DNA of 64,000 bases from the NCBI RefSeq assembly GCF_024213555.1, contig NZ_JANAVO010000001.1, positions 3,162,001 to 3,226,000 on the forward strand, given 5' to 3'. Positions within the stretch are counted from its first letter, which is position 1. Every line of letters starts with the position of its first letter. Source of the stretch: Allokutzneria sp. A3M-2-11 16. GTDB lineage: Bacteria > Actinomycetota > Actinomycetes > Mycobacteriales > Pseudonocardiaceae. The notes under the pieces are model-generated. The model had not been told where the DNA came from. It made no database searches and saw only the letters and a list, made by a program, of their open reading frames with translations. A program made the translations under genes and the position numbers. Of the stretch, positions 43,976-59,531 are shown in pieces.

Positions 43976-44031
43976 GCGGTCGCAAGGTAGTGGCCGTCAG
44001 CCGTGGTTCATAGAGCTGGAAGGAGCAGCGC

Positions 44032-44604
44032 GTGTTGTTCCCCCAACGGTTCCTCGACGCGCTCGCCGATGGGCGAGCAGACCTCGCCTTCCGCAGGTGG
44101 ACCAAGCCGTCGGCGCGGGCCGGAGGTCGTCAGCGCACAGCTGTTGGCGTCGTCGAGTTCGTCTCGGTCGAGGTCATCGCGCCTTCCTCGATCGACTTCG
44201 AGGCCGCGCGTCGAGCCGGGTACGCCTCGCGCGCGGCCCTGCTCGCCGAGCTGGAGCGGCGCTCCGGCGAGGTGTACCGGATCCAGGTCCGGCTCGTGGG
44301 CGCCGACCCGCGTTTGGCGTTGCGCGACCAGAAACCGACTCCGGCGGAACTGGGCGACATCCGTGACCGCCTCGCCCGTTTCGACTCGGCGAGCACGCAC
44401 GGCGCGTGGGCGCTCGCCGTGCTGCGACTGATCGCGGAGTGCCCGGGGGAACCCGCCGCCCGCCTCGCCGAACGGCGTGGGCGGGAGACCCGACTGTTCA
44501 AAGTGGACGTTCGCAAGCTGAAAGAGCTGGGGCTGACCGAAAGCCTCGCCGTGGGTTACCGGTTGTCGCCCCGGGGTGAGGCCGTGCTGGCAGCTCTGGG
44601 CTGA
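44032..44604 (+). CDS. Hypothetical protein with ASCH-like N-terminus
   Basis: 190 residues from GTG 44032. The start (PQRFLDALADGRADLAFRRW, then TKPSARAGGRQRTAVGVVEF) resembles the ASCH/PUA-like fold that binds RNA; the middle is helical (LGDIRDRLARFDSASTHGAW) and the end reads like a winged helix (LKELGLTESLAVGYRLSPRG). RNA or DNA binding is an inference. It stands alone before metG, 77 bases apart. Confidence 0.75.
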   Translation: MLFPQRFLDALADGRADLAFRRWTKPSARAGGRQRTAVGVVEFVSVEVIAPSSIDFEAARRAGYASRAALLAELERRSGEVYRIQVRLVGADPRLALRDQKPTPAELGDIRDRLARFDSASTHGAWALAVLRLIAECPGEPAARLAERRGRETRLFKVDVRKLKELGLTESLAVGYRLSPRGEAVLAALG

Positions 44605-44681
44605 CCTGCGGAAAACGCGGTACCGCCTGCCACTAAACTGGGTGACGACCCGCTCTTGCTCAACCAAATGCTGGGGAGACC

Positions 44682-46241
44682 ATGTCCGGCGCGTCCTTCA
44701 TCTCCACGACGATTCCCTACGTCAACGCGAGCCCGCACCTCGGCCACGCGCTGGAGTGGGTCCAGACGGACGCGTTCGCCCGGCACATGGCCATGCGCGG
44801 CCAGGACGTCTACGTGCTCAGCGGCTCCGACGAGAACGCGCTGAAGAACGTGCTCGCCGCGGAGAAGGCCGGTGTCTCGACCAAGGACCTGGTCGCGAGC
44901 AACGTGGTCTTCTTCGAGGAGCTGATGAGGCGTCTGGAGGTCGGCCTCACCCGGTTCATCCGGACCAGCGTCGACCAGGACCACATCGACGGCGCCGTGG
45001 AGATCTGGCGCCGGATGGCCGCCAGCGGCGACATCTACACCAAGGACTACTCGGGCCTGTACTGCGTGGGCTGCGAGCAGTTCTACGGTGAGGGCGAACT
45101 GGTCGACGGCAAGTGCCCGGAGCACCGCACGGTGCCCGAGCTGGTCAGCGAGACCAACTACTTCTTCAAGCTCTCCCGCTATGGCGACCGGCTGCTCCAA
45201 GCCCTGGAGTCCGGCGAGATCAAGGTCGTCCCGGAGACCCGCCGCAACGAGGTGACCAGCTTCGTCCGCGCCGGCCTCGAAGACATCAGCATCTCCCGCT
45301 CGATGGCCCGCGCGCGCGGCTGGGGCATCCCGGTGCCCGGCGACGACAGCCAGGTCATGTACGTCTGGATCGACGCGCTGACCAACTACACCAACGCTCT
45401 GGGCTGGTTCCGCGACGACGAGAACTACCGCAAGTACTGGGTCGAGGCCGATGACCGCGTGCACGTGCTCGGCAAGGGCGTCTCCCGGTTCCACGCGGTG
45501 TACTGGCCCGCGATGCTGATGTCCGCGGGGCTGCCGCTGCCCACCGAGATCGTGGTTCACGGCTACATCACCGTGGACGGCGAGAAGATCGGCAAGTCCC
45601 TCGGCAACGCCGTCGACCCGGTGGCCCTGATCGAGCGCTTCGGTGTCAGTGCGATCCGCTACTACCTGTTGGCCGACTTCTCGCCCTTCGGCGATGGCGA
45701 CTTCAGCGTGAAGCCGCTGATCGCGCGGTACAACAACGACTTGGCCAACGGCCTCGGCAACCTCGTCAGCCGCGTGACCAGCATGACCCAGCGCTACCGC
45801 GAGGGCATCGTCCCCGCGTCCGGCCCTGTGTCCGCTCCCGAGGAGTCCCTGGCCGCCCAGGTCGAGGTGAGTGCGCGGGAGTCGCTGGAGGCGATGGTCC
45901 GCTACGACCACCGCGAGGCCCTGACCAAGGTGTGGGACCTCGTCCGGCGCACCAACGCCTACGTGGACGAGCGCGCCCCGTGGCACCTGGCGAAGGAGGG
46001 CACCCCGGAGTCGGAGGCCCTGCTGAACACCACGCTGCACCACCTGGTCGGCGCGGTCCGGCAGCTCGGCGGCTTGATCCAGCCGTACCTCCCGGTGCCC
46101 AGCGCGGCGATCCTGGAGGCCCTCGGCGAGAAGGCGGAGAGCGTCCCCGCCGCCGACGCGTGGCTGTCCGACCTGGCGGGCCGCGCGATCAGCAAGCCCC
46201 CGGCGCTGTTCCCCCGCCTGGAGCTGCCCGAAGCGGAGTGA
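44682..46241 (+). CDS. metG: Methionyl-tRNA synthetase
   Basis: 519 residues from ATG 44682. Class I aminoacyl-tRNA synthetase that charges tRNA-Met. HIGH motif is HLGH (19-22) in NASPHLGHALEWVQTD; KMSKS is EKIGKSLGN. A Cys-containing insertion (YCVGCEQFYG then GKCPEHR) is the connective-peptide zinc knuckle. Anticodon-binding helical domain starts around 370 (YNNDLANGLGNLVSRVTSMT). Ends without the C-terminal dimerisation domain, as in many actinobacteria. A second metG elsewhere is possible because this looks like the short form. Terminator follows. Confidence 0.96.
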   Translation: MSGASFISTTIPYVNASPHLGHALEWVQTDAFARHMAMRGQDVYVLSGSDENALKNVLAAEKAGVSTKDLVASNVVFFEELMRRLEVGLTRFIRTSVDQDHIDGAVEIWRRMAASGDIYTKDYSGLYCVGCEQFYGEGELVDGKCPEHRTVPELVSETNYFFKLSRYGDRLLQALESGEIKVVPETRRNEVTSFVRAGLEDISISRSMARARGWGIPVPGDDSQVMYVWIDALTNYTNALGWFRDDENYRKYWVEADDRVHVLGKGVSRFHAVYWPAMLMSAGLPLPTEIVVHGYITVDGEKIGKSLGNAVDPVALIERFGVSAIRYYLLADFSPFGDGDFSVKPLIARYNNDLANGLGNLVSRVTSMTQRYREGIVPASGPVSAPEESLAAQVEVSARESLEAMVRYDHREALTKVWDLVRRTNAYVDERAPWHLAKEGTPESEALLNTTLHHLVGAVRQLGGLIQPYLPVPSAAILEALGEKAESVPAADAWLSDLAGRAISKPPALFPRLELPEAE

Positions 46242-46250
46242 CCAGCGAAA

Positions 46251-46295
46251 ACCGCCCCTGCGAACGTTCCGGTCGAACGTTCACAGGGGCGGTTG
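46251..46295. terminator. Bidirectional terminator after metG
   Basis: AACCGCCCCTG (46251-46261) and CAGGGGCGGTT (46285-46295) form an 11-bp stem; two GAACGTTC palindromes lie in the loop. It separates metG from the convergent amyloid-motif gene. Confidence 0.85.
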
Positions 46296-46298
46296 TGG

Positions 46299-46670
46299 TC
46301 AGAGGCTGACGTTGCCGCCGACGGTGCCGATCTGGACCACCTTGCCGCTGCCGCCGACGTTCCCGCTGACGCTGTTGGCCACGCTCCCGTTGTCCGCGTG
46401 GATCTCCACGTTGGCCCGCTCGTACCGCTCCCGCAGCTTCTGGCCGAACTCCGGGTCCGCCTGCTCGGCCCGCTCCAGCTCCCGGCCCAGCTCCTCGACG
46501 CGCGCCCCGTCCTCCGGCGCTTCGATCGCGGCCTCCAACACCGCCTGGGCTTCGGGGCTGAACTGCTCCTTCACCCACCGGCAGAGCCCGCCGAACGCGG
46601 CCGTCGTGGCCCGCGTCGCCAGCACAGCCGCCATCGTCATGATCATCGGTTCCGGCACGTCGTCCCCCAT
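46299..46670 (-). CDS. Small protein with C-terminal RHIM-like amyloid signalling motif
   Basis: 123 residues from ATG 46670. A hydrophobic/helical N-terminal part (MIMTMAAVLATRATTAAFGG; VKEQFSPEAQAVLEAAIEAP) is followed by a charged helix and a C-terminal tail NSVSGNVGGSGKVVQIGTVG (99-118) then GNVSL. VQIG at 112-115 matches the (V/I)Qx(G) core of RHIM/PP-like amyloid motifs that occur at the ends of effector and receptor proteins in bacterial NLR-type immune pairs. The upstream region may be the effector or membrane-acting domain. An HNH nuclease gene is 45 bases upstream on the same strand. No NLR receptor is in the window, so the partner is unknown. Confidence 0.7.
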   Translation of the reverse strand: MGDDVPEPMIMTMAAVLATRATTAAFGGLCRWVKEQFSPEAQAVLEAAIEAPEDGARVEELGRELERAEQADPEFGQKLRERYERANVEIHADNGSVANSVSGNVGGSGKVVQIGTVGGNVSL

Positions 46671-46715
46671 GCGCAGATCGTGGGCAGTCGCTGACTCACC
46701 GTAGCAGCGCCGTGC

Positions 46716-47684
46716 TCAGATGCCCCGAACCTTGTTGTACCGCCAGAGCAAGGCGTTCTTGCTCGGATGGTGGGACGGGTGGGGGAGACGGAGCCGCTTG
46801 CCGTGGAGTCCTTGCAGGCCGTGCACAAGCATCGGTTCCGTGGACCGGTCGGCTAGGACATCTTCCCTGACCTCCATCACGAAGTTGTCTGGGTGAATTC
46901 GAATGATTCCACTGTCATACGCGCCGTGGTGGAGTTTGCAGAGTGCCAGGCCGTTCCACACTTCTGGATGCCCGTCCGGCTCGCTGTCCGGGATGATGTG
47001 GGCTGCCTCGATGAGCCCCTTGTATCCCAGTCCGCACATCGCGCAGCGGTGCTTGTAGGCGTGGCGAACTCGTGTACTGAACAGAGGTTGGTGAAGGCGA
47101 AGATTGGTGAGTCGCTTCTGTATTCTCTTCTGAGTCGTGGTGGTGATCGGTCCTGTGTTCTCCGGTTTCTGCTCTTCGCTTACGGCGATCACGAATTGAA
47201 GTTTTTCGGGCTCGTCGCCAATGATCCAGATAGGGTACTTCGGCAGGTAGAACGCGTCGGCGGCGCCTAGGAACCAGATGAGCGGAAGATCGCGTGCATA
47301 GGCGTTGCGAAGGCCAACGTTATCTGGGTGAGTGGGGTCCTCGCCGCGGTAATTGTATCGTTGGAGCCCATCATCGCCCAGGGAATCTTCGTATGGCGGC
47401 TTCTTCCCGGCTGGGGTGTAGACGGTGCGCATAGAAAGAGCAGTGTCATAACCCGCTGGCTTGCGGATGCCAGCCTGGCGATCCATCAGCGGTAGCCGTT
47501 CGCCATTGAACTCGAAGTCTTCTAGTTGCCTTTGCTTGACCCATCCGTCTTCGGTCTTGGGAAGGTCAGTCAGCCAGGCCATCGCGACATCACGCATCTT
47601 GCGGTCTTCGTCTGGATCGATCAGCACCGTGCGTGCCACGCGTCCCCCTCGGTTTGCCAGTCCCGCAAACGGATCGAGAGACAT
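46716..47684 (-). CDS. HNH endonuclease (restriction-like)
   Basis: 322 residues from ATG 47684. The C-terminal nuclease has CAMCGLGYKGLIEAAHIIPD, HPEVWNGLALCKLHHGAYD, SGIIRIHP: zinc-binding CxxC with a second cysteine/histidine set and the AAHI/LC..HH core of the ββα-metal HNH fold. The N-terminal ~150 residues (MRDVAMAWLTDLP; LPLIWFLGAADAFYLPKYPI) recall the recognition domains of McrA-like or type IV restriction enzymes, but this is not certain. Third-position G+C between 47080 and 47450 is visibly lower than in neighbours, suggesting acquisition. It is likely a defence gene. Confidence 0.88.
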   Translation of the reverse strand: MSLDPFAGLANRGGRVARTVLIDPDEDRKMRDVAMAWLTDLPKTEDGWVKQRQLEDFEFNGERLPLMDRQAGIRKPAGYDTALSMRTVYTPAGKKPPYEDSLGDDGLQRYNYRGEDPTHPDNVGLRNAYARDLPLIWFLGAADAFYLPKYPIWIIGDEPEKLQFVIAVSEEQKPENTGPITTTTQKRIQKRLTNLRLHQPLFSTRVRHAYKHRCAMCGLGYKGLIEAAHIIPDSEPDGHPEVWNGLALCKLHHGAYDSGIIRIHPDNFVMEVREDVLADRSTEPMLVHGLQGLHGKRLRLPHPSHHPSKNALLWRYNKVRGI

Positions 47685-47732
47685 CTAGCAGAGACGAGCG
47701 CTCACGTGGGTGGGCTTGGTTGACTCCCACCC

Positions 47733-48683
47733 ATGCGGATCGTCTTGGACACCGACCCCGGGATCGACGACGCGCTCGCGATCCTCTACCTGGCCGCACA
47801 GCCGGATGTGGAACTCGTCGGCGTGGGCACGGTGCACGGCAACGTCCCGGCCGACACGGCTGCGGAGAACGCCCTGCGCGTGCTCGAACTCGTGGGTTGG
47901 GGCGACGTCCCGGTTGCCATCGGCGCAAGGATGCCGATGGCGCAGCCGCTGCGGACCTACGAGTACGTGCACGGCGACGACGGCCTGGGCAACGTCGCGG
48001 GGCCGAAGCCGCAGGGAAAACCGACCGCGGAGTCGGCGGTCGAACAGCTCGTCCGGCTCGCGCGGCAGTACCCGGGGGAGCTGGTCCTGCTCGCGCTGGG
48101 GCCGCTGACCAACGTCGCGGTCGCGCTGCTCGTCGAGCCGGAGCTGCCGAAGCTGCTGCGCAAGGTGGTCGTGATGGGCGGCGCGGTGTGGGCGCCGGGC
48201 AACGCGACGGCGCACGCCGAGGCCAACATCTACAACGACCCGGAAGCCGCTGATCTTGTTCTGGGGGCGGGGTTCGACCTCACGCTGGTGGGCCTGGAAG
48301 CGACGGCGCACGCCATCGCCAACGCCACCTGGTTGGATGAACTGGCCGGGCACGACAGCCCGCGCGCCCGGTTCGCCAGCGGTGTTCTCGGCCACTACGT
48401 GGGCTTCTACCAGCCGCTCGTCGGGGTCCGGCAGTGCACGCTCTACGACCCGCTGGCCGCGGCGATCCTGCTCGATCCGGAGCTGGCCGGCTACCGCGAG
48501 CTGCCGGTGCACGTGGAGCTGCGGGGCACCCACACCAGGGGAACCACCATCGCCGACCTGCGCGGTTACCAGGACACGGTGGCCGAGCGGCCCGCGGTGA
48601 AGATCGCGGCGGAGCTGGACGAGGCCGAGTTCCTCGATCGGATGCTGCGAGCCCTGCGAGCGGAGACCGCCGGCGCACCTTGA
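47733..48683 (+). CDS. Nucleoside hydrolase
   Basis: 316 residues from ATG 47733. RIVLDTDPGIDDALAILYLA is the N-terminal Ca2+-binding DTDxGxDD motif; GPLTNVAVAL and VVMGGAVWAPGNATAHAEAN are conserved loops (Asn contacts ribose) and YDPLAAAIL supplies the last aspartate. It cleaves the N-glycosidic bond of ribonucleosides for salvage. Length fits the family. Divergent from the HNH gene with 48 bases between. Confidence 0.95.
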   Translation: MRIVLDTDPGIDDALAILYLAAQPDVELVGVGTVHGNVPADTAAENALRVLELVGWGDVPVAIGARMPMAQPLRTYEYVHGDDGLGNVAGPKPQGKPTAESAVEQLVRLARQYPGELVLLALGPLTNVAVALLVEPELPKLLRKVVVMGGAVWAPGNATAHAEANIYNDPEAADLVLGAGFDLTLVGLEATAHAIANATWLDELAGHDSPRARFASGVLGHYVGFYQPLVGVRQCTLYDPLAAAILLDPELAGYRELPVHVELRGTHTRGTTIADLRGYQDTVAERPAVKIAAELDEAEFLDRMLRALRAETAGAP

Positions 48684-48740
48684 TCGGCAACGGCGGCTGT
48701 CTGCTTCCACTGTCGGCCGGGCACGCTACGATAATTGCAG

Positions 48741-48791
48741 GAACAGCTGCCCAGACAAGCGGAGCCGCCCACGGGTGAGGCCCGCTTGTCC
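48741..48791 (+). promoter_or_regulatory. Leader hairpin and promoter of DUF3073 gene
   Basis: A TACGAT -10-like hexamer (48727-48732) is followed by a leader with the stem GACAAGCGG/CCGCTTGTC (48753-48761 and 48783-48791). The hairpin lies 20 bases before the start codon and could attenuate or stabilise the mRNA. Confidence 0.45.
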
Positions 48792-48811
48792 TTGTATAGG
48801 GAGGTCGAGCT

Positions 48812-48991
48812 ATGGGGCGCGGCCGGGCCAAGGCAAAGCAGGCGAAGGTGGCACGGGAGCTCAAGTACAGCTCTCACCCAACTGACCTGCAAGCGCTGCA
48901 GAACGAGTTGTCGAGTGGGGGGTCAGTGGCCGATCGCAGGCCGGACGACCGACTTGAACTCGACGACCGGTACGACAACTACCGCGGGTGA
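48812..48991 (+). CDS. DUF3073 small protein
   Basis: 59 residues from ATG 48812 (GAGG upstream). MGRGRAKAKQAKVARELKYS then ELDDRYDNYRG match the DUF3073 family: a basic N-terminal nucleic-acid-like segment and an acidic tail. The family is confined to actinobacteria and has no assigned function. Single gene with its own leader hairpin and a perfect terminator. Confidence 0.93.
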   Translation: MGRGRAKAKQAKVARELKYSSHPTDLQALQNELSSGGSVADRRPDDRLELDDRYDNYRG

Positions 48992-48999
48992 ACAGCTGA

Positions 49000-49044
49000 A
49001 CTGAGCCGCCCGGCCACGTGCACCCGTGACCTGGGCGGCTCAGT
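49000..49044. terminator. Bidirectional terminator after DUF3073 gene
   Basis: ACTGAGCCGCCC (49000-49011) pairs perfectly with GGGCGGCTCAGT (49033-49044). It ends both the DUF3073 gene and the convergent five-gene operon. Confidence 0.85.
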
Positions 49045-49292
49045 CACGCCCGGCGCTCGACGAAGCCGGACAGGCTCGCGATGGATTCCAGCGCATCCAG
49101 GTTCAGGTCCTCGGCGGCGACGTCGACGCCGAACCGCTCACGCACGGAGTCGAGCAGTCGTGCGCCCGCGAGCGAGCTGAGCCCGACCTCCGGACCGAAC
49201 AGCCGCGTGTCCCCGGGCAGCGCGGCGACCACCGACTCGTCCTGGCCGACCGCATCGGCGATGAGCCGCCGGACGACAGCGTCGGTGCTCAT
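49044..49292 (-). CDS. Acyl carrier protein
   Basis: 82 residues from ATG 49292 (GGAGGCGGC immediately upstream). TRLFGPEVGLSSLAGARLLD holds the phosphopantetheine Ser within LSSL, where most carriers have DSL, and RFGVDVAAEDLNLDALESIA is helix III. As last gene of the operon with an FkbH-type phosphatase it probably carries the acyl (for example glyceryl) group made by the FkbH protein. The gene starts inside the stop of a 13-codon mini-ORF that itself overlaps the FkbH stop. Confidence 0.85.
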   Translation of the reverse strand: MSTDAVVRRLIADAVGQDESVVAALPGDTRLFGPEVGLSSLAGARLLDSVRERFGVDVAAEDLNLDALESIASLSGFVERRA

Positions 49293-49330
49293 GCCGCCTC
49301 CGCGGAGAAAAGTACGTCGGCGGTGCTCAT
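49289..49330 (-). CDS. 13-codon mini-ORF coupling fkbH-like and ACP genes
   Basis: ATG 49330 overlaps the FkbH stop (ATGA), the frame encodes MSTADVLFSAEAA and its stop overlaps the ACP start (ATGA). It fits a re-initiation bridge over the 34-base gap. The first bases ATGAGCACCG repeat those of the ACP gene, so it may also be a duplicated, abandoned start. Confidence 0.45.
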   Translation of the reverse strand: MSTADVLFSAEAA

Positions 49331-50373
49331 GAATCCCCTTCAATGATCGTCAACCAGGTCGGCGCGTCCGGGAGCGGTGCGCCCGCCGGGGCACCGAGCA
49401 CGGCAAGGTCGGGCTCGGGCTGCTCCACCACGCGCATCCCGCACTGGCGGAACAGCACCCGGAGTTCGAGGTTCGCGCTGGTCGGCCGCATGAGCACCTC
49501 GACGCCCGTGCCGGAGCGCGCCATCAGCCAGCGCAGGAAAGCCAGCGCCACACCGCGCCCGGCCACCCGGCACGACAGCGCCAGGAGCCGCACGCGCCAC
49601 ATCGTGTCCCGCCGTTCCACCAACGCGGCGCCGATCATGCCGTAGTCGCCGAACCGGTCGGTTAACCGCGCGATCGGCACGAACCACCGCGGCGAAGCCA
49701 GCATCGACCGCAGTTCCTCCGCGGACGGAACTTCGCCGGTCGAGTTGAGCCGATGGGTCCGCGCGGCCAGCTCCAGCAAGCGGTCCAGGTCCTCGGCGCG
49801 GGCCTCGCGCACCGCCAGCCGCATGTCGCAGTCGCGCAGGAAGTCCTCGCGGGAGCCGGTGAACGTCGCCGCCGCGGCCTTGCGATCTTCGTCCTCGCGG
49901 TAGCGCCGGACTCGCGCTTTGCTGTCGGCGGTCAGCACCGCGGGCAGCAGCGGCGGCTCGTTCAGCCGCGCTGCCAGGTCCTCGGGGGACAGGACCAGCA
50001 CTTCGGGAGCGCGCGCCGCCACCTCCGCGCGTTCGAAGGCGGTGTCGTCCACGAACGCGAGGGTGTTCAGGCCGATGCCCAGTTCGTCGGCGATCCGGCG
50101 CAGCGCCTCGCTCTTGTCACCCCAGCCCAGCTGCGGCGCGACGAACCGCTCCGCCAGCTCGGGCGAGGACGTGAGCAGCGGCAGCAGCGACGGGTCCGTT
50201 CGACTGGCGACGCTGCTCAGGATGCCCCGCCCAGCAAGCACGTCGATCGCCCGCAGCACCTCCGGCCGCGGCCTCGGCAGGCTCCGTTCGGCGCCCTCGA
50301 TCGCGACCTCGTCCCACACCGTGCCGTCGAGGTCCCAGACGACGCACTTGACCGTCCGGTCCCCTGAAGTCAT
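49327..50373 (-). CDS. FkbH-like HAD-IIIC phosphatase/acyltransferase
   Basis: 348 residues from ATG 50373. The HAD domain has CVVWDLDGTVWDE (Asp14, Asp16), SVASRTDP and FVDDTAFERAEVAARAPEV. A GNAT-like C-terminal domain (~200-340; FGDYGMIGAALVERRDTMWR; LLALSCRVAGRGVALAFLRW) follows as in FkbH family proteins, which convert 1,3-bisphosphoglycerate to glyceryl-S-ACP for extender units. With a dedicated ACP next to it, the same reaction is likely here. Overlaps the GNAT gene (ATGA) and the mini-ORF. Confidence 0.88.
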   Translation of the reverse strand: MTSGDRTVKCVVWDLDGTVWDEVAIEGAERSLPRPRPEVLRAIDVLAGRGILSSVASRTDPSLLPLLTSSPELAERFVAPQLGWGDKSEALRRIADELGIGLNTLAFVDDTAFERAEVAARAPEVLVLSPEDLAARLNEPPLLPAVLTADSKARVRRYREDEDRKAAAATFTGSREDFLRDCDMRLAVREARAEDLDRLLELAARTHRLNSTGEVPSAEELRSMLASPRWFVPIARLTDRFGDYGMIGAALVERRDTMWRVRLLALSCRVAGRGVALAFLRWLMARSGTGVEVLMRPTSANLELRVLFRQCGMRVVEQPEPDLAVLGAPAGAPLPDAPTWLTIIEGDS

Positions 50374-50837
50374 TTCCTCATGTCCAGGCGCATCGACAGG
50401 TGCGTCGACTCGAAGCCGAACTTCCGGTACAGCGTGCGCATACCGGTGTTGCCGACGTGCACCTTGCCCGTGACCTCGGTCAGGTCGTTGCGCCTGGCGA
50501 AGGCCAGCCCCTCGTCCAGCAGCAGCTCAGCGACCTCGGTCCGCTCCGGCAGCTCCGCGACCGCGAGCGAGCGGAAGTTGGCGTAGCGGTCACCGGTGAG
50601 GAAGTTGGTGTTCAGCGCCATCCACAGCCAGCCGACCGGCGCCTCGTCCCCGCGGGCGGCGACGAACATGCCCTCCGGCTGCTTCTTCAGCGCGTTGGCC
50701 AGCTTCTTGCGGTGCGTCGCCGGATCGTCCACCGCGTCGGCGCCGAAGGAGATCTTCGCGATCTCCACCTCGAAGTCCGCGATCGCGTCCAGGTCCCGCT
50801 CCTCGGCCCGGCGCACGGTGTAGCCGGAGGCACTCAT
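50370..50837 (-). CDS. GNAT-family acetyltransferase
   Basis: 155 residues from ATG 50837, overlapping the bpsA-like stop. YTVRRAEERDLDAIADFEVE; PVGWLWMALNTNFLTGDRYA; YANFRSLAVAELPERTEVAE; VGNTGMRTLYRKFGFEST are the usual GNAT strands, acetyl-CoA loop and final helix. In this operon it may acylate an amine made by the SpeD/BpsA-like enzymes. It is not a recognisable SpeG. Confidence 0.88.
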   Translation of the reverse strand: MSASGYTVRRAEERDLDAIADFEVEIAKISFGADAVDDPATHRKKLANALKKQPEGMFVAARGDEAPVGWLWMALNTNFLTGDRYANFRSLAVAELPERTEVAELLLDEGLAFARRNDLTEVTGKVHVGNTGMRTLYRKFGFESTHLSMRLDMRK

Positions 50838-52012
50838 TCCGCGACCAGCTGGAGCGGGCGGAACGGACCACCACCGCACTTGGGACAGCCAGCCGCGCGA
50901 AGGTCGGCGACGGAGTTCCACTGCGCGCCGACGCCGACGGGGAACCGCTCGGAGCAGGAGACGCACTCGTACTCGCGCTGCCGGGAACGCTTCTCCCTGG
51001 TGTAGAGCGGGCCCTCGTAACTGCCCTCGACCAGCGACGCGGTCGTCGCCGTGGTCAGCAGGTGCTGGAGGAAGCCGGTCCCGCCGAGGATGCCGGAACC
51101 CTCGTACTCGTTGAAGTTGCGGATCATGCCGTGGGTGACCAGACCGAGGTCGAGCACCTCGCGCTGGACGTCCAGCATCTCCTCGGTTCCCTTGGCGCCG
51201 AAGGAGAACAGCACGTTGCGCGCGGCTCCGGGCTTGAGGCCCTCGACGACGCGGGAGAGGAACAGCTTCGCGCCCTCGGCGGTGTAGGGCGGGTCGGTCA
51301 TGCCCGCGTCGAACCGGCCGCGCAGGTCCTCCGGCAGCGGGTCGCGCAGGTCGTGCTGGACCAGGTCGACGTCGATGCCGAGGGTGTCGGCGGTGTCGGC
51401 GATGTACTCCAGGATGTCCGCTGACAGGTCGACCACGGTGACGTTGCTGGCCAGCGGCACGTCCAGGACGTCGCTGACCACGCCGATGGCGATCGAGACC
51501 AGGTCGTCGTCGCCGACGAGCAGCACCGAGCCGCCCGGCAGCACCCCCGCCCTGATCAGCGCGAGCACCCGGCGGATCTTGGTCTCGGCGGTGCACAGCG
51601 ACTGGTCCAGCGCGACGTTCACGCCGGGCGCGGCCGCCATGATCCGCTTCATCCGCTCGACGGCCTCGTTGAGCACCGCCGGGATGGCGATCTCCAGGCC
51701 GCCGCAGCGGTAGCAGTCCGGGTTGAGGTTGAGCTCGACGCCCAGCTCGGTGGTCAGCGCGTGCCCGCGCGGGGTGAGCCGGGACGGCCGCTCCTCGCCG
51801 AGCAGGCCGCGGCTGCGCAGCTCGTTGCCGACGGCGGCGACGATCGGCAGCGGCAGGCCGGTGCGGCGGCTGATGGCCCTGGTCGGTGCGGGCGCGAGCT
51901 GGCGGAAGGCCTGCAGGATGGCGCGGACGCCCATCTCGCCTTCCTGGAGCCGCACGGCGTCGGCGACCTCGGCGAGCAGGGCGAGGTCGGGGTTCGGGGA
52001 CTCGGCGCTCAT
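50834..52012 (-). CDS. Bis-aminopropyl spermidine synthase (BpsA)-family protein
   Basis: 392 residues from ATG 52012 (no strong ribosome site; an upstream in-frame start is possible). An N-terminal winged-helix region (ISRRTGLPLPIVAAVGNELR; RLTPRGHAL) is followed by a zinc-type NPDCYRCGGLEI motif, then the aminopropyltransferase core: VLLVGDDDLVSIAIGV, TVVDLSADILEYI, AGMTDPPYTAEGAKLF. A C-terminal zinc ribbon (EYECVSCSERFPVG ... GCPKCGGG) ends the protein. Archaeal and thermophile BpsA transfers aminopropyl groups from decarboxylated SAM to make branched polyamines. Co-location with a SpeD homologue fits a decarboxylated-SAM or amine-dependent pathway, but product unknown. Confidence 0.88.
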   Translation of the reverse strand: MSAESPNPDLALLAEVADAVRLQEGEMGVRAILQAFRQLAPAPTRAISRRTGLPLPIVAAVGNELRSRGLLGEERPSRLTPRGHALTTELGVELNLNPDCYRCGGLEIAIPAVLNEAVERMKRIMAAAPGVNVALDQSLCTAETKIRRVLALIRAGVLPGGSVLLVGDDDLVSIAIGVVSDVLDVPLASNVTVVDLSADILEYIADTADTLGIDVDLVQHDLRDPLPEDLRGRFDAGMTDPPYTAEGAKLFLSRVVEGLKPGAARNVLFSFGAKGTEEMLDVQREVLDLGLVTHGMIRNFNEYEGSGILGGTGFLQHLLTTATTASLVEGSYEGPLYTREKRSRQREYECVSCSERFPVGVGAQWNSVADLRAAGCPKCGGGPFRPLQLVAE

Positions 52013-52103
52013 GAGGCGAACCGCGGGCAGATCGGCACGATGGTGTTCAGCATGGTCCGGCGAGCTTAGCAACCGGGTAGCTCACCAGCGGGTATGCCCG
52101 TCC

Positions 52104-52469
52104 TCACTTGGTGGCCCGGAGCAGGCGGGAGACGTTGGTGCGCACCGGGGACAGCCCGTCCTCGATGGTGGCGATCATGCGCTCGGCGTTGATCCGGCCG
52201 TAGGCGAGCAGATCGATGTTGGCCAGGTTGAACTCCGGCCAGGTGTGGATGCTCAGGTGCGACTGCGAGAGCACCAGCACCGCGGTCACCGCGCCGTTGG
52301 GGAACACGTGCCGGGACTCACCGAGGACCTTCGCGTTGCCCGCCAGCGCCGCGTCGGTGAGCAGCCGCAGCAGCGCGGGTTCGTCCGTCAGGATCGCCGG
52401 GTCCGCGACCCACGCGTCCACCGCGTAGGAACACAGCTCGTCCACCTCGACCTCGCCGTCACCTGCCAT
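52104..52469 (-). CDS. SpeD-like (S-adenosylmethionine decarboxylase fold) protein
   Basis: 121 residues from ATG 52469. LSQSHLSIHTWPEFN (68-81) is the pyruvoyl-processing region of SpeD, with Ser70 as the pyruvoyl precursor and His75. Compared with the Thermotoga enzyme the residue before the cleavage Ser is Gln instead of Glu, and the catalytic Cys position (20 residues after the Ser) is Tyr90. SpeD-fold decarboxylases that use ornithine or arginine are known, so a changed substrate is possible, or processing may be lost. First gene of the operon; 117 bases separate it from a divergent response regulator with a TACGAT -10-like site. Confidence 0.88.
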   Translation of the reverse strand: MAGDGEVEVDELCSYAVDAWVADPAILTDEPALLRLLTDAALAGNAKVLGESRHVFPNGAVTAVLVLSQSHLSIHTWPEFNLANIDLLAYGRINAERMIATIEDGLSPVRTNVSRLLRATK

Positions 52470-52586
52470 GGCGCGAGAGTAGTTGGTAACCGACCGGAGG
52501 ACTTCCCGGAGCCGTCGGGCACCCCCGTACGATCGACGCGATCTGTCGCTCGTCCTCGGGCGGGCGACGAGTCCGAGGGAGGCCGG

Positions 52587-53795
52587 GTGTCGAAACCAGT
52601 TCGGCTGGGCGAGCGGGACATCCGGGTCCTGCTGGTCGAGGACGATGACGGCGACGCCTTCCTGGTCGAAGAGCACCTGTCATTGCACGGCAGCCACATC
52701 CGCCTCACCAGGGTGCGCACCCTCGCCGAGGCCGAGGCCAAGATCGTCGGCAGACGGGTCGACTGCGTGCTGCTCGACCTGCAACTGCCGGACGCCACCG
52801 GGCTCGACGGCCTGCGCAGGCTGCGGTCGGTCAGGAACGCGGGCGGCGTCGCGTTCATCGTGCTGACCGGGCACGACGACCAGCAGCAGGGCGTGGCCGC
52901 CGTCGCGACGGGAGCGCAGGACTACCTGATCAAGGGCGATGTGGACGGCAGGCTGCTCGCCAGGGCCATCCGCTACGCCATCGAGCGGTTGCGCGCGGAG
53001 GAGACGCAGCGCCAGCTCGACGAGGAACGGTTGCGCGGTGAGGAGAACGCGCGGCTGGAGCGCGGTCTGCTGCCGTCGCCGCTGCTGCGCGACCCGCACA
53101 CGACCTTCGTCGCCCGGTACCGCGCGGGCGGGGCCACGATGCTCGTCGGCGGTGACTTCTACGACGCGGTGCAGACCGAGGACGGCACGGTGCACGTCGT
53201 CATCGGCGACGTCTGCGGGCACGGTCCGGACGAGGCCGCGGTCGGCGTGTGCCTGCGGATCGCCTGGCGCGCTCTGGTGCTCTCGGGTCAGCCGACCGAG
53301 GTGATTCTCCGTACGCTGCAACAGGTTCTGCTCGCCGAGCGGTTGCGGCGCGGGGTCTTCGCGACCATCGCGACGATCTCGGTCAGCCCCGACCAGCAGA
53401 CCGCGACGATGCACCTGGCCGGGCACCCGGAACCGCTGCTGATCAGCGAGGGCCGGGCCGTCGCGGTGCCGAGGGACGAGGCGGGGATGCCGCTGGGCAT
53501 CGACCCGCAGGCGAGCTGGCTGCCGATGACCCTCGACCTGCCGCCGGACTGGGCGCTGGTGCTCTACACCGACGGGCTGATCGAGGGCCGCGTCGGCGAC
53601 GGGCCCGAACGCCTTGGCGTGGAAGGACTGCACGAGCTGATCGAGTCGCGGATCGGGCAGGACGCGCGCTGGCGCTCGTCCCCGCACACGCTGCTCGACC
53701 ACCTCATCGAGCGGACCGAGGCCATGCACGGCCAGCGGCTCACCGACGACGTGGCCGTGCTGCTGCTGACCTCGAACTACCGGCGGCCGCGGTGA
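52587..53795 (+). CDS. Response regulator with PP2C (RsbU-type) phosphatase output
   Basis: 402 residues from GTG 52587 (GAGGGAGGCC upstream). Receiver: VLLVEDDDGDAFLVEEHL, VLLDLQLPDATGLDGL, FIVLTGHDDQQQGVAAVATG, DYLIKGDVDG. A helical linker (~135-160) leads to a SpoIIE/PP2C domain: FVARYRAGGATMLVGGDFYD, VIGDVCGHGPDEAAVG, LAGHPEPLLISEGRAV, VLYTDGLIEGR, DDVAVLLL, with the metal-binding Asp residues present. It dephosphorylates an anti-anti-sigma factor or similar protein under control of the kinase next door, whose GTG overlaps its stop. Confidence 0.93.
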   Translation: MSKPVRLGERDIRVLLVEDDDGDAFLVEEHLSLHGSHIRLTRVRTLAEAEAKIVGRRVDCVLLDLQLPDATGLDGLRRLRSVRNAGGVAFIVLTGHDDQQQGVAAVATGAQDYLIKGDVDGRLLARAIRYAIERLRAEETQRQLDEERLRGEENARLERGLLPSPLLRDPHTTFVARYRAGGATMLVGGDFYDAVQTEDGTVHVVIGDVCGHGPDEAAVGVCLRIAWRALVLSGQPTEVILRTLQQVLLAERLRRGVFATIATISVSPDQQTATMHLAGHPEPLLISEGRAVAVPRDEAGMPLGIDPQASWLPMTLDLPPDWALVLYTDGLIEGRVGDGPERLGVEGLHELIESRIGQDARWRSSPHTLLDHLIERTEAMHGQRLTDDVAVLLLTSNYRRPR

Positions 53796-55324
53796 CCCGC
53801 TCCCTCGGCCGCTGGCTGCTGGCCGCAGGAGCGTTCCTGTTGGCGTTCGCGGTGACCGCGATCCTGCTGGGCGCCTACGCGATCACCGAGCTGACCGATG
53901 CCCGGCGCACGGGCACCACCTACGTCGACCCCGCGGCCCGGCTGGCGCAGAGGATGACCACCGCGTTCCTCGACCAGGAAACGGGCGTGCGGGGTTACGT
54001 GCTGACCGGCCGCGCGGACTTCCTGGAGCCCTACCGGACCGGCGTGCGCGACGCCACCGAGGTGCGCGCGCGGCTCACCGAGCTGACCAAGAACGGCGGC
54101 CAGCTCGAACGGTCCAACCTCGACGCGATCGATGTGGCGAACCAGGCGTGGGTGAGCGGCTACATCGAGCCGACCCTGGAGATCGTCCGCACCCGCGGAG
54201 CCTCCGGGAACACCGGCAACTCCGCCCGCGGCAAGATCCTGTTCGACGCGGTCCGGGCCGCGCTCGACCGGCAGACCGAGCACTACGACATCCTGCGCGG
54301 GGACTCGCAGCGGCGGGTCGACAACGCGGGGGCGACGCTGATCACGCTTTGCGTGACGGTCGCCGTGCTGCTGGTGCTGGCGATCATCGCGTTGTTCCTC
54401 GGCACCCGGCGGGTGGTGCTGAAGCCGCTGGCCGACCTGCGCGCCGAGGCCCGGCGGGTGGCCGGTGGCGACTTCGACCACCAGCTCGCCGTGCACGGCC
54501 CCCGCGAGATCCTCGACCTCGGGCACGACGTCGACGAGATGCGCGGCCACATCCTCCGCGAGCTGGACGCGCTGCAGAGCGCCCACCGCGCGCTCGACGC
54601 GCAGGCCCGCGAGCTCCAGCGCTCCAACGCGGAACTGGAGCAGTTCGCCTACGTCGCCTCGCACGACCTCCAGGAGCCGCTGCGCAAGGTCGCCGGGTTC
54701 TGCCAGCTGCTGTCGACCAGGTACCGCGGTCAGCTCGACGAGCGGGCGGACCAGTACGTCGACTTCGCGGTGGACGGCGCCAAGCGGATGCAGGTGCTGA
54801 TCAACGACCTGCTGGCGTTCTCCCGGGTCGGCCGGACCAGTGGCGAGGCGCGCGCGGTGGACAGCGCGGAGCTGGTCGCGCAGGCCCAGCGGAACCTGGC
54901 CGCCGCCATCGAGGACAGCGGCGCGGAGGTCGTCGCCGAGGACCTGCCGACGGTGTGCGGCGAGGCGTCGCTGCTGACCACGGTGTTCCAGAACCTGATC
55001 AGCAACGCGATCAAGTTCCGCGGCGAGCAGCCGCCGCGGCTGCGCATCGACGTGCGGCCGGTCGACGGGATGTGGGAGTTCTCCTGCTCCGACAACGGGA
55101 TCGGCATCGAGCCGCAGTACGCCGAGCGGATCTTCGTGATCTTCCAGCGGTTGCACCCGAAGGAGGCGTACGCGGGTACTGGCATCGGCCTCGCCCTGTG
55201 CCGCAAGATCATCGAGCACCACGGTGGCACCATCCGGCTGGACACCGAGCACCAGGGCGGGTCGCGCTTCGTCTTCACCCTGCCCGCCGCCCCCGACGCG
55301 ACAACCGAAGGTGGCCATGACTGA
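53792..55324 (+). CDS. CHASE3-HAMP sensor histidine kinase
   Basis: 510 residues from GTG 53792 (GTGA overlap). Membrane helix ~8-30, CHASE3 sensor ~35-180 ([29 protein letters not shown]), second helix ~190-215, HAMP ([20 protein letters not shown]), coiled coil, H box [20 protein letters not shown], and ATPase ([55 protein letters not shown]). It resembles phytochrome-like and Hpk-type kinases that use Rcp1 regulators. It sits between the two response regulator genes and probably phosphorylates both. Confidence 0.93.
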
Positions 55325-55760
55325 CCAGACCTCGCTCCCCCCGTTTGACGTGCTGCTGGTCGAGGACGATCCGGGCGACGTGCTGATGACCCAGGAAGCC
55401 TTCGAGCTGCACAAGATCCGCAACAACCTGCACGTGGTCTCCGACGGCGTCCAGGCACTGGCCTTCCTGCGCCGGGAGGGCGCCTACGCGAACGCCCCGC
55501 GCCCCGGGCTGGTCCTGCTCGACCTGAACCTGCCGAAGAAGGACGGCCGCGAGGTCCTCGCCGAGATCAAGGCCGACGAGTCGCTGCGCACGATCCCGGT
55601 GGTGGTGCTGACCACGTCCGAGGCGGAGGAGGACATCCTGCGCAGCTACGACCTGCACGCCAACGCCTACGTCACCAAACCGGTCGACTTCCACCGGTTC
55701 GTGGAGATCGTCCAGCGCATCGACGACTTCTTCGTCACCGTGGTCAAGCTCCCGCGCTGA
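55317..55760 (+). CDS. Single-domain response regulator (Rcp1-type)
   Basis: 147 residues from ATG 55317, overlapping the kinase stop by 8 bases. [80 protein letters not shown]: a complete receiver with no output domain. Rcp1-like proteins act as phosphate shuttles or sinks for CHASE3/phytochrome kinases. It may compete with the PP2C regulator for phosphate. Confidence 0.95.
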
Positions 55761-55775
55761 ACCTAGATTGGCGCC

Positions 55776-56219
55776 ATGGCAGCGGACCAGGTCGTCTCCC
55801 GAAGCGTCGTCATCAACGCCCCGCCGGAGCGCGTCTTCGAGGTGCTGGCCAACCCGTACGAGCACGCCAACTTCGACGGGTCCGGCAGCGTGCGCGGGCA
55901 GGTGCACGGACCAGGACGGCTTGCGCTTGGCACGAAGTTCGGCATGCGGATGCGCGTCCTGCTGCCCTACCGGATCGAGAACGAGGTCGTGGAGTTCGAG
56001 CCGGACCGGCTGATCGCCTGGCAGCACACCGGGCGCCACCGCTGGCGCTACCGGCTGGAGCCCGCCGAGGGCGGCACGCTGGTCACCGAGAGCTTCGACT
56101 GGGGCACCGCGCGCTCACCGAAAGCGCTGGAGCTGCTGGGGTACCCCAAGCGCAACGCGAAGTCGATCGAGCAGACCCTGGCGCGGCTGAAGACGCTCAT
56201 CGAGCAGCGCGCGGGCTGA
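55776..56219 (+). CDS. SRPBCC-family protein
   Basis: 147 residues from ATG 55776. VVSRSVVINAPPERVFEVLA is the opening strand/helix of the START/Bet v1-like (polyketide cyclase/dehydrase) fold; IENEVVEFEPDRLIAWQHTG and LEPAEGGTLVTESFDWGTA are the following strands. Binds a hydrophobic ligand; the substrate is unknown. Downstream of the kinase operon by 15 bases and possibly co-transcribed. Confidence 0.88.
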   Translation: MAADQVVSRSVVINAPPERVFEVLANPYEHANFDGSGSVRGQVHGPGRLALGTKFGMRMRVLLPYRIENEVVEFEPDRLIAWQHTGRHRWRYRLEPAEGGTLVTESFDWGTARSPKALELLGYPKRNAKSIEQTLARLKTLIEQRAG

Positions 56220-56312
56220 TCGGTTCCGGCTGATCTGTTCTGTGATGCCGCCGTGCTCTCCATGATCCCGGCCGCGCGGATCATGGGTCACTCCGCGTTG
56301 ACAGGGGTGGCC

Positions 56313-56873
56313 ATGAACTGGCGAATACGGGGCGTCGTCGCCCTGCTCGTGCTCTTGATGACGACCGCGTGCGGTGCGGACGGAACGGTGAAGCTGGCAC
56401 CGCCGTTCCTGCCGATCGCCTTCGGCATCAACAGCAAGGGCGATGTGACCGTCTCCTACGACAAGTCCTTCGTGACACCGCTCGGTCGGCTCACCTTCGG
56501 CGCGGACCTGCCCGTGGTGGACGAGGCCGAGGGGCATCTGCTGGTGATCCAGCAACGGGTGGCTAACCGGGACGTCCGCGACCTCTACACGCTGCGCGTC
56601 GAGGGCAACCTCGCCGCCTGCCTGACCGGGCGGTTCCACCTCGGCGTCTCCGGGAACACCATCACCCTGGTGCTGCTGACCCAGGTGAGCCGGTTCTGGC
56701 TGGTCGCGGCCACCGACAACCCGCGCTCCGCGTGCCCGCCGGAGCCCGGCATCACCCGCGCCCTGCCGACGACGCGGCCCCGGCCGACGACCACCACGTC
56801 CCGGCCGACCACCACCTCCAGGCCGCCCGTCACCACGACGAGCAGGTGGCCCTTCGTGACCACGACCCGCTAG
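56313..56873 (+). CDS. Lipoprotein with Thr/Pro-rich C-terminal tail
   Basis: 186 residues from ATG 56313; the upstream in-frame ATG at 56253 would spoil the signal peptide. Signal peptide with TTAC lipobox (Cys ~22). The folded part (FLPIAFGINSKGDVTVSYDK; LGRLTFGADLPVV; LLVIQQRVANRDVRDLYTLR) is strand-rich, and the last ~40 residues are a TTRPRPTTTT-type linker as in wall-associated proteins. Function unknown. The gene nearly meets the convergent one at 56875. Confidence 0.75.
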   Translation: MNWRIRGVVALLVLLMTTACGADGTVKLAPPFLPIAFGINSKGDVTVSYDKSFVTPLGRLTFGADLPVVDEAEGHLLVIQQRVANRDVRDLYTLRVEGNLAACLTGRFHLGVSGNTITLVLLTQVSRFWLVAATDNPRSACPPEPGITRALPTTRPRPTTTTSRPTTTSRPPVTTTSRWPFVTTTR

Positions 56874-56874
56874 G

Positions 56875-57210
56875 TCACCAGCGGCGGGACCGCGCCGTCC
56901 GCGTCGACCTGTTCCGCGACAGCGACGGCTGTCCGGACCGGTGCGCGACCGGTCGTTCACTTCGGGGCAGCGAGTCGAGGTCCCGCACCACGCGGATCCG
57001 GGTGGTCTCCGGCGCCAGTTCCCAGGCGCGGAGATCGCTCGGATACGGGTGGAAACCGTGGCACAGCAACGTGTCGCGGAGCGCCCACATCGGCGGCGCG
57101 ACGTCGGGGTCGTGCTCGATCCGGAACTCCAGCTGCTCGCCCACCCGCATCACCCAATGGGTCTCGGTCTTGCGGTGCAACCGCGCAGTCTCGGCGTCAG
57201 TGGTGATCAT
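56875..57210 (-). CDS. Hypothetical protein
   Basis: 111 residues from ATG 57210 (GGAGGCCCAG upstream). HWVMRVGEQLEFRIEHDPDV, PPMWALRDTLLCHGFHPYPS and LRAWELAPETTRIRVVRDLD suggest a small alpha/beta protein; the last ~30 residues are Arg/Ser rich and low complexity, perhaps an out-of-frame or unselected extension. No family recognised. Confidence 0.6.
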   Translation of the reverse strand: MITTDAETARLHRKTETHWVMRVGEQLEFRIEHDPDVAPPMWALRDTLLCHGFHPYPSDLRAWELAPETTRIRVVRDLDSLPRSERPVAHRSGQPSLSRNRSTRTARSRRW

Positions 57211-57277
57211 CTGGGCCTCCGGTTCCGGCTTCCTCGACACAGCGAAGCCCTCCGGTACCTACCCAGTCGGGTGACGA

Positions 57278-57853
57278 TTAATCGCCCGCGAGTGGAAAAC
57301 CGCTGTGGGCGCGTTCACCAGCGGGTTCGGCAGCGGGTTCGGCGTAGACCCGGTTGATGCTCGTGCCGAGCTTGCCGATGTCGGCCCCGTACACGTGGAT
57401 CGACACCGCGAGGCTGTCGCCGTCGTTGCGCACCCGGTGCACGTCGCGGTCGGGCGGTACCAGCCAGCACACCTCGCCAGGCGCGTTGTGGCTCGTCGAG
57501 CGCTGGTGCGGTACCCCGGCCTCGTCCAGCTCGTAGCAGATCTCCTCTTCCCTGCCGCGCAGGACGCCGACCACGCACCAGCACACGTGGTCGTGCACGG
57601 GCGTCTGCTGGCCCGGCAGCCACACCAGCGACACGACGGAGAACCGGGACAGCGGGTCGACGTGCACGACGTGCTGGCGGTAGCCGTCCGGGGCGGGCTC
57701 CATGTGCTCCGGCCCGAGCACGCCTCCAGATCCGAGCAGGTCCCGCAGTGCGTCGGCGACCTCCGCCGCCCGTGCTCCTGGGCGGGATTCGGCCGCTACC
57801 AACAGTTCCAGGTCAAGGACGAACTCGCGCATGCGCTCGGTCAGCATCGTCAT
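57278..57853 (-). CDS. Cysteine dioxygenase-family protein
   Basis: 191 residues from ATG 57853. The cupin metal site is TPVHDHVCWCVVGVLRGREE (His87, His89) with the third His in DRDVHRVRN; YELDEAGVPHQRS and SIHVYGADIGKLGTSINRVY follow as in bacterial CDO-like thiol dioxygenases. The enzyme adds O2 to cysteine or another thiol (3-mercaptopropionate type possible), making a sulfinate. Divergent from LysR with 123 bases between, so LysR is its probable regulator. Confidence 0.9.
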   Translation of the reverse strand: MTMLTERMREFVLDLELLVAAESRPGARAAEVADALRDLLGSGGVLGPEHMEPAPDGYRQHVVHVDPLSRFSVVSLVWLPGQQTPVHDHVCWCVVGVLRGREEEICYELDEAGVPHQRSTSHNAPGEVCWLVPPDRDVHRVRNDGDSLAVSIHVYGADIGKLGTSINRVYAEPAAEPAGERAHSGFPLAGD

Positions 57854-57976
57854 CACCCTCCGCGTCCGATCGTGCTGGCGTCCGGACGGGTGGTCCAATC
57901 ACCGTTGCGCAGGGCTTGCCCAAGCTCCGCTTATGCGAGCCCGCCACGACCGCGTCAGGCGTGGTACTGCTGGGAA

Positions 57977-58876
57977 ATGCTCGAGCTACGCCACCTCCGG
58001 ATGCTGCGGGAGATCGCACGCACCGGTTCGTACTCGGCCGCCGCGGTGAACCTCGGCTACACGCAGCCCGCGATCAGCCAGCAGGTCAAGGCCCTGGAAC
58101 GGGTCTACGGCACCCCGCTGCTGGTCCGGCTGGGCAGACGGATGCGCTTCACCGAGGCGGGCGCGGAGCTGGTGCGCTCCGCCCAGGTCATCCTCGCCGG
58201 GGTCGCCGCGGCCGAGCAGCGGGTCGACGCCATCGCCGGGCGCCGCTCGGGCCGGGTGCGCCTGGTGGTGTTCCCCAGCGGCAGCGCGACCCTGGTGCCG
58301 CCCGCCGCCGCCCAGGTCCGCCGGGACCACCCGGGCATCCGGATGTCCCTGGCCGAGGCGGAGCCGCCCGAGTCGATCGAGCTCGTCCGTTCCGGCGAAT
58401 GCGATCTCGCGCTGACCTTCGCCTTCCTCGACGAGCCCGACGCCGCGGGCCTGCTGCGCGTCCGGCTGTTCACCGATCCGCTGGTGGCGCTGCTGCCCTC
58501 CGGGCACCGCCTCGCCGAGGCCGAGTCGGTGTCGCTGACCGACCTCGCCGAGGAGCAGTGGATCGCCGGGTGCGCCGTCTGCCGCGGTCACCTGGTGCGC
58601 ATCTGCCAGGCGGCGGGCTTCGAGCCGGAGATCACCTTCGCCACCGACGACAACCTCGCGGTGCAGGCGTTGGTGGCCGCCGATCTCGGCGTCGCCGTCG
58701 TCCCGGAGCTGATGTTGACCGCCGCGTGGCGCCCGGACATCGTCGCGCGCCCGGTGCACCCCGCGATGTGCCGCGAGGTGTTCCTGTACACCTGGCCGGA
58801 CCTGATGCGCGTGCCGACCGTGCGGACCACCGTGGCCGCCCTCCGCCGCGTAGCCCGCACCGTAGGCGCCCGCTGA
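57977..58876 (+). CDS. LysR-family transcriptional regulator
   Basis: 299 residues from ATG 57977. The winged HTH is MLELRHLRMLREIARTGSYS, AAAVNLGYTQPAISQQVKAL, TPLLVRLGRRMRFTEAGAEL; the effector domain (VRLVVFPSGSATLVPPAAAQ; VALLPSGHRLA; FATDDNLAVQALVAADLGVA) is of the LysR_substrate type. Divergent from the cysteine dioxygenase gene and likely controls it, perhaps in response to a sulfur compound. Confidence 0.95.
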   Translation: MLELRHLRMLREIARTGSYSAAAVNLGYTQPAISQQVKALERVYGTPLLVRLGRRMRFTEAGAELVRSAQVILAGVAAAEQRVDAIAGRRSGRVRLVVFPSGSATLVPPAAAQVRRDHPGIRMSLAEAEPPESIELVRSGECDLALTFAFLDEPDAAGLLRVRLFTDPLVALLPSGHRLAEAESVSLTDLAEEQWIAGCAVCRGHLVRICQAAGFEPEITFATDDNLAVQALVAADLGVAVVPELMLTAAWRPDIVARPVHPAMCREVFLYTWPDLMRVPTVRTTVAALRRVARTVGAR

Positions 58877-58985
58877 CATCCCTACGCCGCAACGTCCCTG
58901 ACACTGCAACGCCCCTGACATCGCAACACCCCTTGCACCGCAACGTCCCCTGACGTCGCAACGCCCCCTTGCGCCGCAACACTTC
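58874..58985. repeat. Tandem array of ~17-18-bp degenerate repeats with GCAAC core
   Basis: GCAAC recurs at 58889, 58906, 58923, 58940, 58958 and 58976, with spacings of 17, 17, 17, 18 and 18 bases; each unit resembles CTGACxxCGCAACGCCC. The array starts at the LysR stop. It may be a protein-binding array or replication-slippage product. Confidence 0.8.
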
Positions 58986-59038
58986 TCAACCGTTGCGCAC
59001 AACGTGTCGGCACCGATCAACCGTGCCGAGGTCGGGGT

Positions 59039-59157: not shown

Positions 59158-59194
59158 CGGCCAACTCGGTCTCAGGTTGGGATGGGATGGGGCG

Positions 59195-59524: not shown

Positions 59525-59531
59525 AGCGGCA

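Follow-up and report, generated by a model that had tools for sequence, protein, structure and literature searches.

The stretch of DNA analysed here, referred to as the window, is 64,000 nucleotides (nt) long and comes from Allokutzneria sp. A3M-2-11 16 (contig NZ_JANAVO010000001.1, positions 3,162,001 to 3,226,000; host genome size 8.8 Mb). Between window positions 49044 and 52469 it carries five neighbouring genes that encode a SpeD-like decarboxylase, a BpsA-like aminopropyltransferase, a GNAT acyltransferase, an FkbH-like enzyme and an acyl carrier protein (ACP). An earlier examination of the letters alone (the sequence-only reading) had proposed that these genes form one operon on one strand. 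All five were present on the minus strand, and Pfam or NCBIfam assigned each of them to its family. The features are as follows.

52104-52469, minus strand: SpeD-like pyruvoyl decarboxylase of the class 1b S-adenosylmethionine decarboxylase (AdoMetDC) family (PF02675, 79.3 bits; PDB matches 1tlu, 1vr7 and 2iii)
50834-52012, minus strand: BpsA-like aminopropyltransferase (PF01861, BpsA_C, 134 bits; match to Tk-BpsA, 5xnc, 5.8e-29)
50370-50837, minus strand: GNAT N-acyltransferase (PF00583, Acetyltransf_1, 33 bits; AlphaFold2 model; Foldseek)
49327-50373, minus strand: FkbH-like glyceryl transferase/phosphatase with a HAD and a GNAT-like domain (TIGR01686, 195 bits)
49044-49292, minus strand: stand-alone ACP (PF00550, PP-binding, 31.5 bits)
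49000-49011 and 49033-49044, no strand given: 12-nt perfect inverted repeat at the ACP stop, a possible terminator

The BpsA/GNAT and GNAT/FkbH junctions are ATGA overlaps, and gaps of 91 nt and 34 nt separate SpeD from BpsA and FkbH from ACP, respectively. The inverted repeat ends at the ACP stop, but it has no T-run and was absent from the intrinsic terminator scan, so that the single terminator of the sequence-only reading is plausible and unproven. An open reading frame of 13 codons, MSTADVLFSAEAA (found by eye, window 49289-49330), bridges FkbH and ACP with an ATGA overlap at either end and begins ATGAGCACC, as ACP does; it resembles either a small duplication or a peptide that serves translational coupling. 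At the corresponding junction in Allokutzneria sp. NRRL B-24872, the FkbH stop is directly overlapped by the ACP start. No riboswitch or other known RNA was detected in window 44000-60000 at gathering thresholds.

BpsA proteins of the cluster type, defined as full-length and strongly matching, were found in overlapping genome samples at 18 distinct loci, and the complete gene set was present at 16 of these, spread over four actinomycete families. Three loci were from Allokutzneria, two from genus g28, eleven from the Streptomyces-like genus g78, one from g340 (genome G1028) and one from family f23 (genome G428). By sample, cluster-type BpsA was carried by 4 of 298 order genomes, 4 of 396 phylum genomes, 6 of 394 class genomes and 9 of 295 g78 genomes, as well as by both (2 of 2) genomes in family f9 and by 1 of 159 in the family to which G1028 belongs. 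All three genomes of the host genus contained the BpsA gene, and the window BpsA was 93% identical to that of NRRL B-24872. Two loci fell short of the full set. In G827 of genus g78 FkbH is decayed and no ACP was found; G428 has just SpeD and BpsA, on a contig that stops 1.5 kb past BpsA. FkbH matches of any kind were obtained in 18 of 121 order-sample genomes, four of which were cluster carriers. Membership in relatives, named beforehand as one of the checks on which the proposal could fail, was consistent, and the recurrence of the set in 16 of 18 loci and four families rules out a chance neighbourhood. The five neighbouring genes are a real, well-supported recurring cluster.

Outside these loci, Cohnella sp. 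REN36 (L033) had a BpsA homologue alone, and the other four genes were not found by tblastn within ~10 kb of it. A search for plasmid relatives returned one record only, whose partial match (54%) looks like the widespread paralogue rather than the cluster and was set aside.

The position of SpeD varied. In Allokutzneria and g28 it lies upstream of the other genes and shares their strand; in g78 it is divergent from them, and in G1028 it is downstream and convergent. That it is retained through three orientations points to a functional tie. An open frame shared by BpsA and GNAT was seen in 9 of 9 g78 loci examined and in G1028, and Pfam detected both domains in one protein (L083); frame length and register point to the same fusion in the remaining two g78 loci. 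With tblastn, a phosphopantetheinyl transferase was located at most ~1.1 kb from SpeD in 11 of 18 loci (10 of the 11 g78 loci, and G1028), and PF01648 was confirmed for both of the transferases scanned. G827, the locus with the decayed FkbH and no ACP, was the only g78 locus without the transferase nearby. None was found near the Allokutzneria and g28 clusters (window and fetched flanks) with a single g78 query, which could miss a distant relative; unless it did so in cis, these strains presumably encode the transferase elsewhere. The genes seem to fall into two linked modules, one for aminopropyl and N-acyl transfer and one for a glyceryl-ACP donor.

In nine locus pairs, all five genes had a ratio of nonsynonymous to synonymous substitution (dN/dS) below 0.6; three pairs of g78 loci, with dS values of 0.09, 0.26 and 0.39, had no amino-acid change in SpeD. 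Over 16 loci, pairwise distances between proteins correlated among the five genes with r of 0.90 to 0.99, a figure that is inflated by shared ancestry.

The FkbH protein passed its family cut-off (195 bits versus 146.65 for TIGR01686). Its HAD motifs and the Cys of its SCR motif were invariant in 16 of 16 cluster FkbHs and common to three controls of the polyketide synthase (PKS) type; the decayed G827 copy was left out of this alignment, and a fourth control locus was not parsed. The cluster proteins form a divergent subfamily, with DLDGT instead of DLDNT, and in the order sample the four cluster FkbHs scored 151-202 bits versus 234-362 for the other FkbHs above the cut-off. The FkbH structure model (mean predicted local distance difference test, pLDDT, 75; predicted TM score 0.60; HAD part weak) was used for domain recognition only. 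The window ACP has its pantetheine-site Ser in GLSSL, and the carrier Ser was present in 16 of 16 cluster ACPs, three of them judged by eye. According to PMC7489565, FkbH and a stand-alone ACP make glyceryl-ACP and are together the core of the tetronate and methoxymalonyl-ACP operons; glyceryl is the group that FkbH enzymes are reported to load (PMC7489565 and PMC8949500). With those known pairs the cluster shares the HAD motifs, the SCR Cys and the adjoining stand-alone ACP, and it differs from them by its lower-scoring DLDGT subfamily and by its partners, which are aminopropyl- and N-acyltransferases. Both g28 clusters, and no other loci, have a F420_oxidored-related gene directly after ACP (L034:10684-11322 and L035:12197-12877; Pfam scan for L034 only), the product of which may act on the carrier-bound acyl group.

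The window BpsA-like protein consists of an N-terminal winged-helix-like part, a BpsA_C catalytic domain with GDDD, and a C-terminal zinc-ribbon-like part with four Cys, which were invariant in the 12 proteins aligned. Residue roles were taken from PMC12979288 for Tk-BpsA of Thermococcus kodakarensis (Asp158-160 and, on the acceptor side, Asp225, Glu259 and Tyr290). Asp158-160 correspond to D168-170 of the GDDD motif, invariant in the 12 of 18 loci that were aligned; the equivalents of Asp225 and Tyr290 are also conserved, and Tyr316 lies beyond the alignment. One point of difference from Tk-BpsA is that cluster BpsA is clustered with or fused to GNAT. The host also encodes a second BpsA_C protein of ~540 aa (G000:C11:2992674-2993555; L002, L037). 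Its relatives are common in actinomycetes and account for the majority of the matches at E < 1e-30, which came from 77 of 394 class genomes; the other four cluster genes were not found in the short flanking stretches fetched (L002).

The SpeD-like protein passed the Pfam cut-off for AdoMet_dc (79.3 versus 25 bits) and fell just below the TIGR03330 equivalog cut-off (71.9 versus 75.65 bits). In a 12-row alignment, with the register taken from the 1tlu/1vr7 alignment, Ser70 and His75, the pyruvoyl Ser and the processing His, were invariant. The AdoMet_dc domain and these two residues are what the cluster proteins have in common with class 1b AdoMetDC. A canonical SpeD lies elsewhere in the host (C2:61204-61524), beside SpeE and on another contig than the cluster. 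The cluster is therefore probably not for housekeeping spermidine synthesis, a role that we judged unlikely. A pyridoxal phosphate (PLP) decarboxylase-like gene, identified by eye, is next to this pair, and the region G000:C2:60491-61587 is a probable housekeeping polyamine locus.

The coenzyme A (CoA) P-loop motif of GNATs is (Q/R)xxGx(G/A). At its fourth position, the register of which was taken from the 8a9o alignment with G1028 placed by eye, E, D or A replaced Gly in 17 of 17 cluster GNATs. This loss in every cluster protein is what an ACP-dependent donor would predict, and it speaks against CoA use. The Asn and Tyr of motif B were kept. The best PDB match of the GNAT profile was a polyamine acetyltransferase (E 4e-4), the N-acetyltransferase DpA (8a9n/8a9o), which also ranked 2, 7 and 8 in Foldseek with the window GNAT model (pLDDT 88). 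DpA shares the GNAT fold with the window protein, which is only ~20% identical to it and differs by absence of the P-loop Gly and by its genetic link to an ACP.

From the observed gene set, its conservation, the fusion, the combined losses and the residues, we infer the reactions, the GNAT donor, the acceptor and the product of a two-module route, which we favour tentatively: formation of an aminopropylated amine, followed by a glyceroyl cap that GNAT would take from an FkbH-loaded ACP. In the first module the SpeD-like enzyme would supply the amine donor, most likely decarboxylated S-adenosylmethionine (dcSAM), and the BpsA-like enzyme would move its aminopropyl group onto a polyamine-like amine acceptor, after which GNAT, fused to BpsA in some lineages, would N-acylate the product. 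In the second, an Sfp-type phosphopantetheinyl transferase, encoded in cis in some lineages and presumably in trans in Allokutzneria, would make holo-ACP, and FkbH would load it with glyceryl from 1,3-bisphosphoglycerate. The acyl group for GNAT would come from ACP rather than CoA, and the expected product is a glyceroyl amide of the aminopropylated amine. The sequence-only reading had suggested a new route to an acylated or glycerylated polyamine-like compound; the cluster behind that suggestion is consistent across relatives, and the product class is a prediction.

Several observations weigh against this route. Active-site residues, also checked, were mostly kept in FkbH and BpsA. The important deviations are in SpeD, at the catalytic Cys, and in GNAT, at the P-loop Gly; each of these two proteins departs from its textbook relatives at one functional site. 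In BpsA, Tk-BpsA Glu259 is Ala273 in the window protein and Ala, Gly, Met or Val across the 12 aligned loci, and the acidic, aminopropyl-carrying C-terminal tail of Tk-BpsA is absent, with the zinc-ribbon-like part in its place. The equivalent of T. maritima Cys83, the catalytic Cys and proton donor of AdoMetDC, is Tyr90 in the window SpeD; Tyr was found at 15 of 18 cluster loci and Cys at 3 of 18, which makes dcSAM production uncertain and SpeD the least certain part of the route. The divergence of the GNAT P-loop is no proof of ACP use, and the Foldseek ranks are weak evidence because one GNAT fold is much like another. Nor is the acyl part obligatory: G827 retains SpeD, BpsA and GNAT without an intact FkbH or ACP, and G428 retains SpeD and BpsA only. 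Finally, the cluster could feed larger pathways where other biosynthetic genes lie beside it. This is the case in G737, where genes resembling those of nonribosomal peptide synthetases (NRPS) and a major facilitator superfamily (MFS)-like transporter gene adjoin the phosphopantetheinyl transferase side (L093:11-6431, by eye), and in G827, where ketosynthase-, acyl-CoA-ligase-, thioesterase-, methyltransferase- and aminotransferase-like genes, an unrelated-looking gene cluster, follow the decayed FkbH (L088:9878-18001, by eye).

The change of Cys to Tyr in SpeD may mean another substrate, and one explanation builds on this: a neofunctionalised SpeD-like enzyme would make the acceptor amine from another amino acid while the canonical SpeD supplies dcSAM, the rest of the route being as proposed above. 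The residue before the pyruvoyl Ser is Gln in the window and Gln or Ala, with Glu lost, in 16 of 18 cluster SpeDs, by which, as by the Tyr, these proteins differ from class 1b AdoMetDC and its ornithine and arginine decarboxylase relatives. In contrast, the order sample gave 61 SpeD matches outside the cluster, and all 26 of these that were fetched kept ES and FTCG. The canonical SpeD and SpeE of the host fit this explanation as well, and PMC10407285 describes SpeD homologues, one of them from Actinomycetota, that act as ornithine or arginine decarboxylases. However, the three cluster SpeDs that keep the Cys (the two g28 loci and G1028) have the same cluster partners as the others, and an ornithine decarboxylase would be redundant beside the PLP decarboxylase-like gene near host SpeE. 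We regard this explanation as unlikely, if a serious contender. It is fairly unlikely that GNAT is instead an ordinary acetyl-CoA polyamine acetyltransferase, with an unlinked enzyme using the glyceryl-ACP, so that the operon gives an acetylated polyamine and a glyceryl donor. The retained motif B residues, the nearest solved relative by profile and the survival of SpeD-BpsA-GNAT in G827 suit such an enzyme; the loss of the P-loop Gly does not, nor does the fact that the single Streptomyces-like locus with a decayed FkbH is also without ACP and phosphopantetheinyl transferase, nor that no ketosynthase was among the six flanking window genes scanned.

Two further explanations are less likely still. 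An operon for polyamine homeostasis, in which a branched polyamine would be made and then stored or detoxified by acylation without any product being secreted, could be served by SpeD, BpsA and GNAT, and G428 carries just SpeD and BpsA; such a function leaves FkbH and ACP without a role, and an occurrence that is both scarce and patchy (4 of 298 genomes in the order, 9 of 295 in g78) is ill-suited to housekeeping, for which reasons we find it improbable. Alternatively, glyceryl-ACP might feed tetronate-, methoxymalonyl-ACP-type or other polyketide or peptide chemistry, the polyamine genes being incidental neighbours. Both known operons have FkbH and a stand-alone ACP at their core (PMC7489565), and the NRPS-like genes of G737 and the ketosynthase-like genes of G827 lend themselves to this idea, although the latter lie beside an FkbH that is decayed. 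Nevertheless, SpeD, BpsA and GNAT accompany FkbH in 16 of 16 loci with an intact FkbH, the cluster FkbHs are low-scoring with DLDGT in place of DLDNT, and no FabH-like condensing enzyme, ketosynthase, dehydratase, hydroxyacyl dehydrogenase or O-methyltransferase was found among the six flanking window genes scanned. We consider this last explanation very improbable.

The enzyme families are already known, and the pathway built from them appears to be undescribed. To our knowledge, polyamine enzymes, FkbH and carrier proteins have not been described together in one pathway. A literature search, with subscription papers mostly outside it, returned no report that joins FkbH with spermidine or polyamine, and none that joins 'bis-aminopropyl spermidine synthase' with Streptomyces. 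One point of likeness with a known system is the use of dcSAM in a natural product, reportedly the aminopropylated microcin C of Bacillus subtilis; this is a peptide-nucleotide product, and we know of no FkbH or ACP there. If the two-module route is correct, dcSAM-derived aminopropyl units and glyceryl-ACP would join in a modular five-gene amide-forming route small enough for in vitro reconstitution. Its enzymes would include a GNAT whose acyl source is an ACP, together with a subfamily of SpeD that lacks the catalytic Cys and whose chemistry is directly testable. A wider claim, possible and on balance doubtful, is that of a new natural-product pathway class that has no NRPS or PKS modules itself. 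In it, a pyruvoyl decarboxylase with altered specificity would act with a zinc-ribbon BpsA and a carrier-protein-using GNAT to give glyceroyl-polyamines, and in Streptomyces-like genomes one bifunctional enzyme would be both aminopropyl and acyl transferase.

The six flanking window genes scanned encode a response regulator/SpoIIE phosphatase, a histidine kinase, a response regulator, a Polyketide_cyc2-domain protein, a nucleoside hydrolase and an HNH protein, with no PKS or NRPS enzyme among them. When 15 loci were compared, these six genes recurred in Allokutzneria only. The response regulator/SpoIIE phosphatase, the histidine kinase, which has a CHASE3 domain, and the response regulator occupy window 52587-55757, divergent from the operon. 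Several g78 clusters (L083-L094) adjoin chaplin-like, rodlin-like secreted protein and tyrosinase-like genes, and a chaplin-like gene is often close behind ACP (both by eye).

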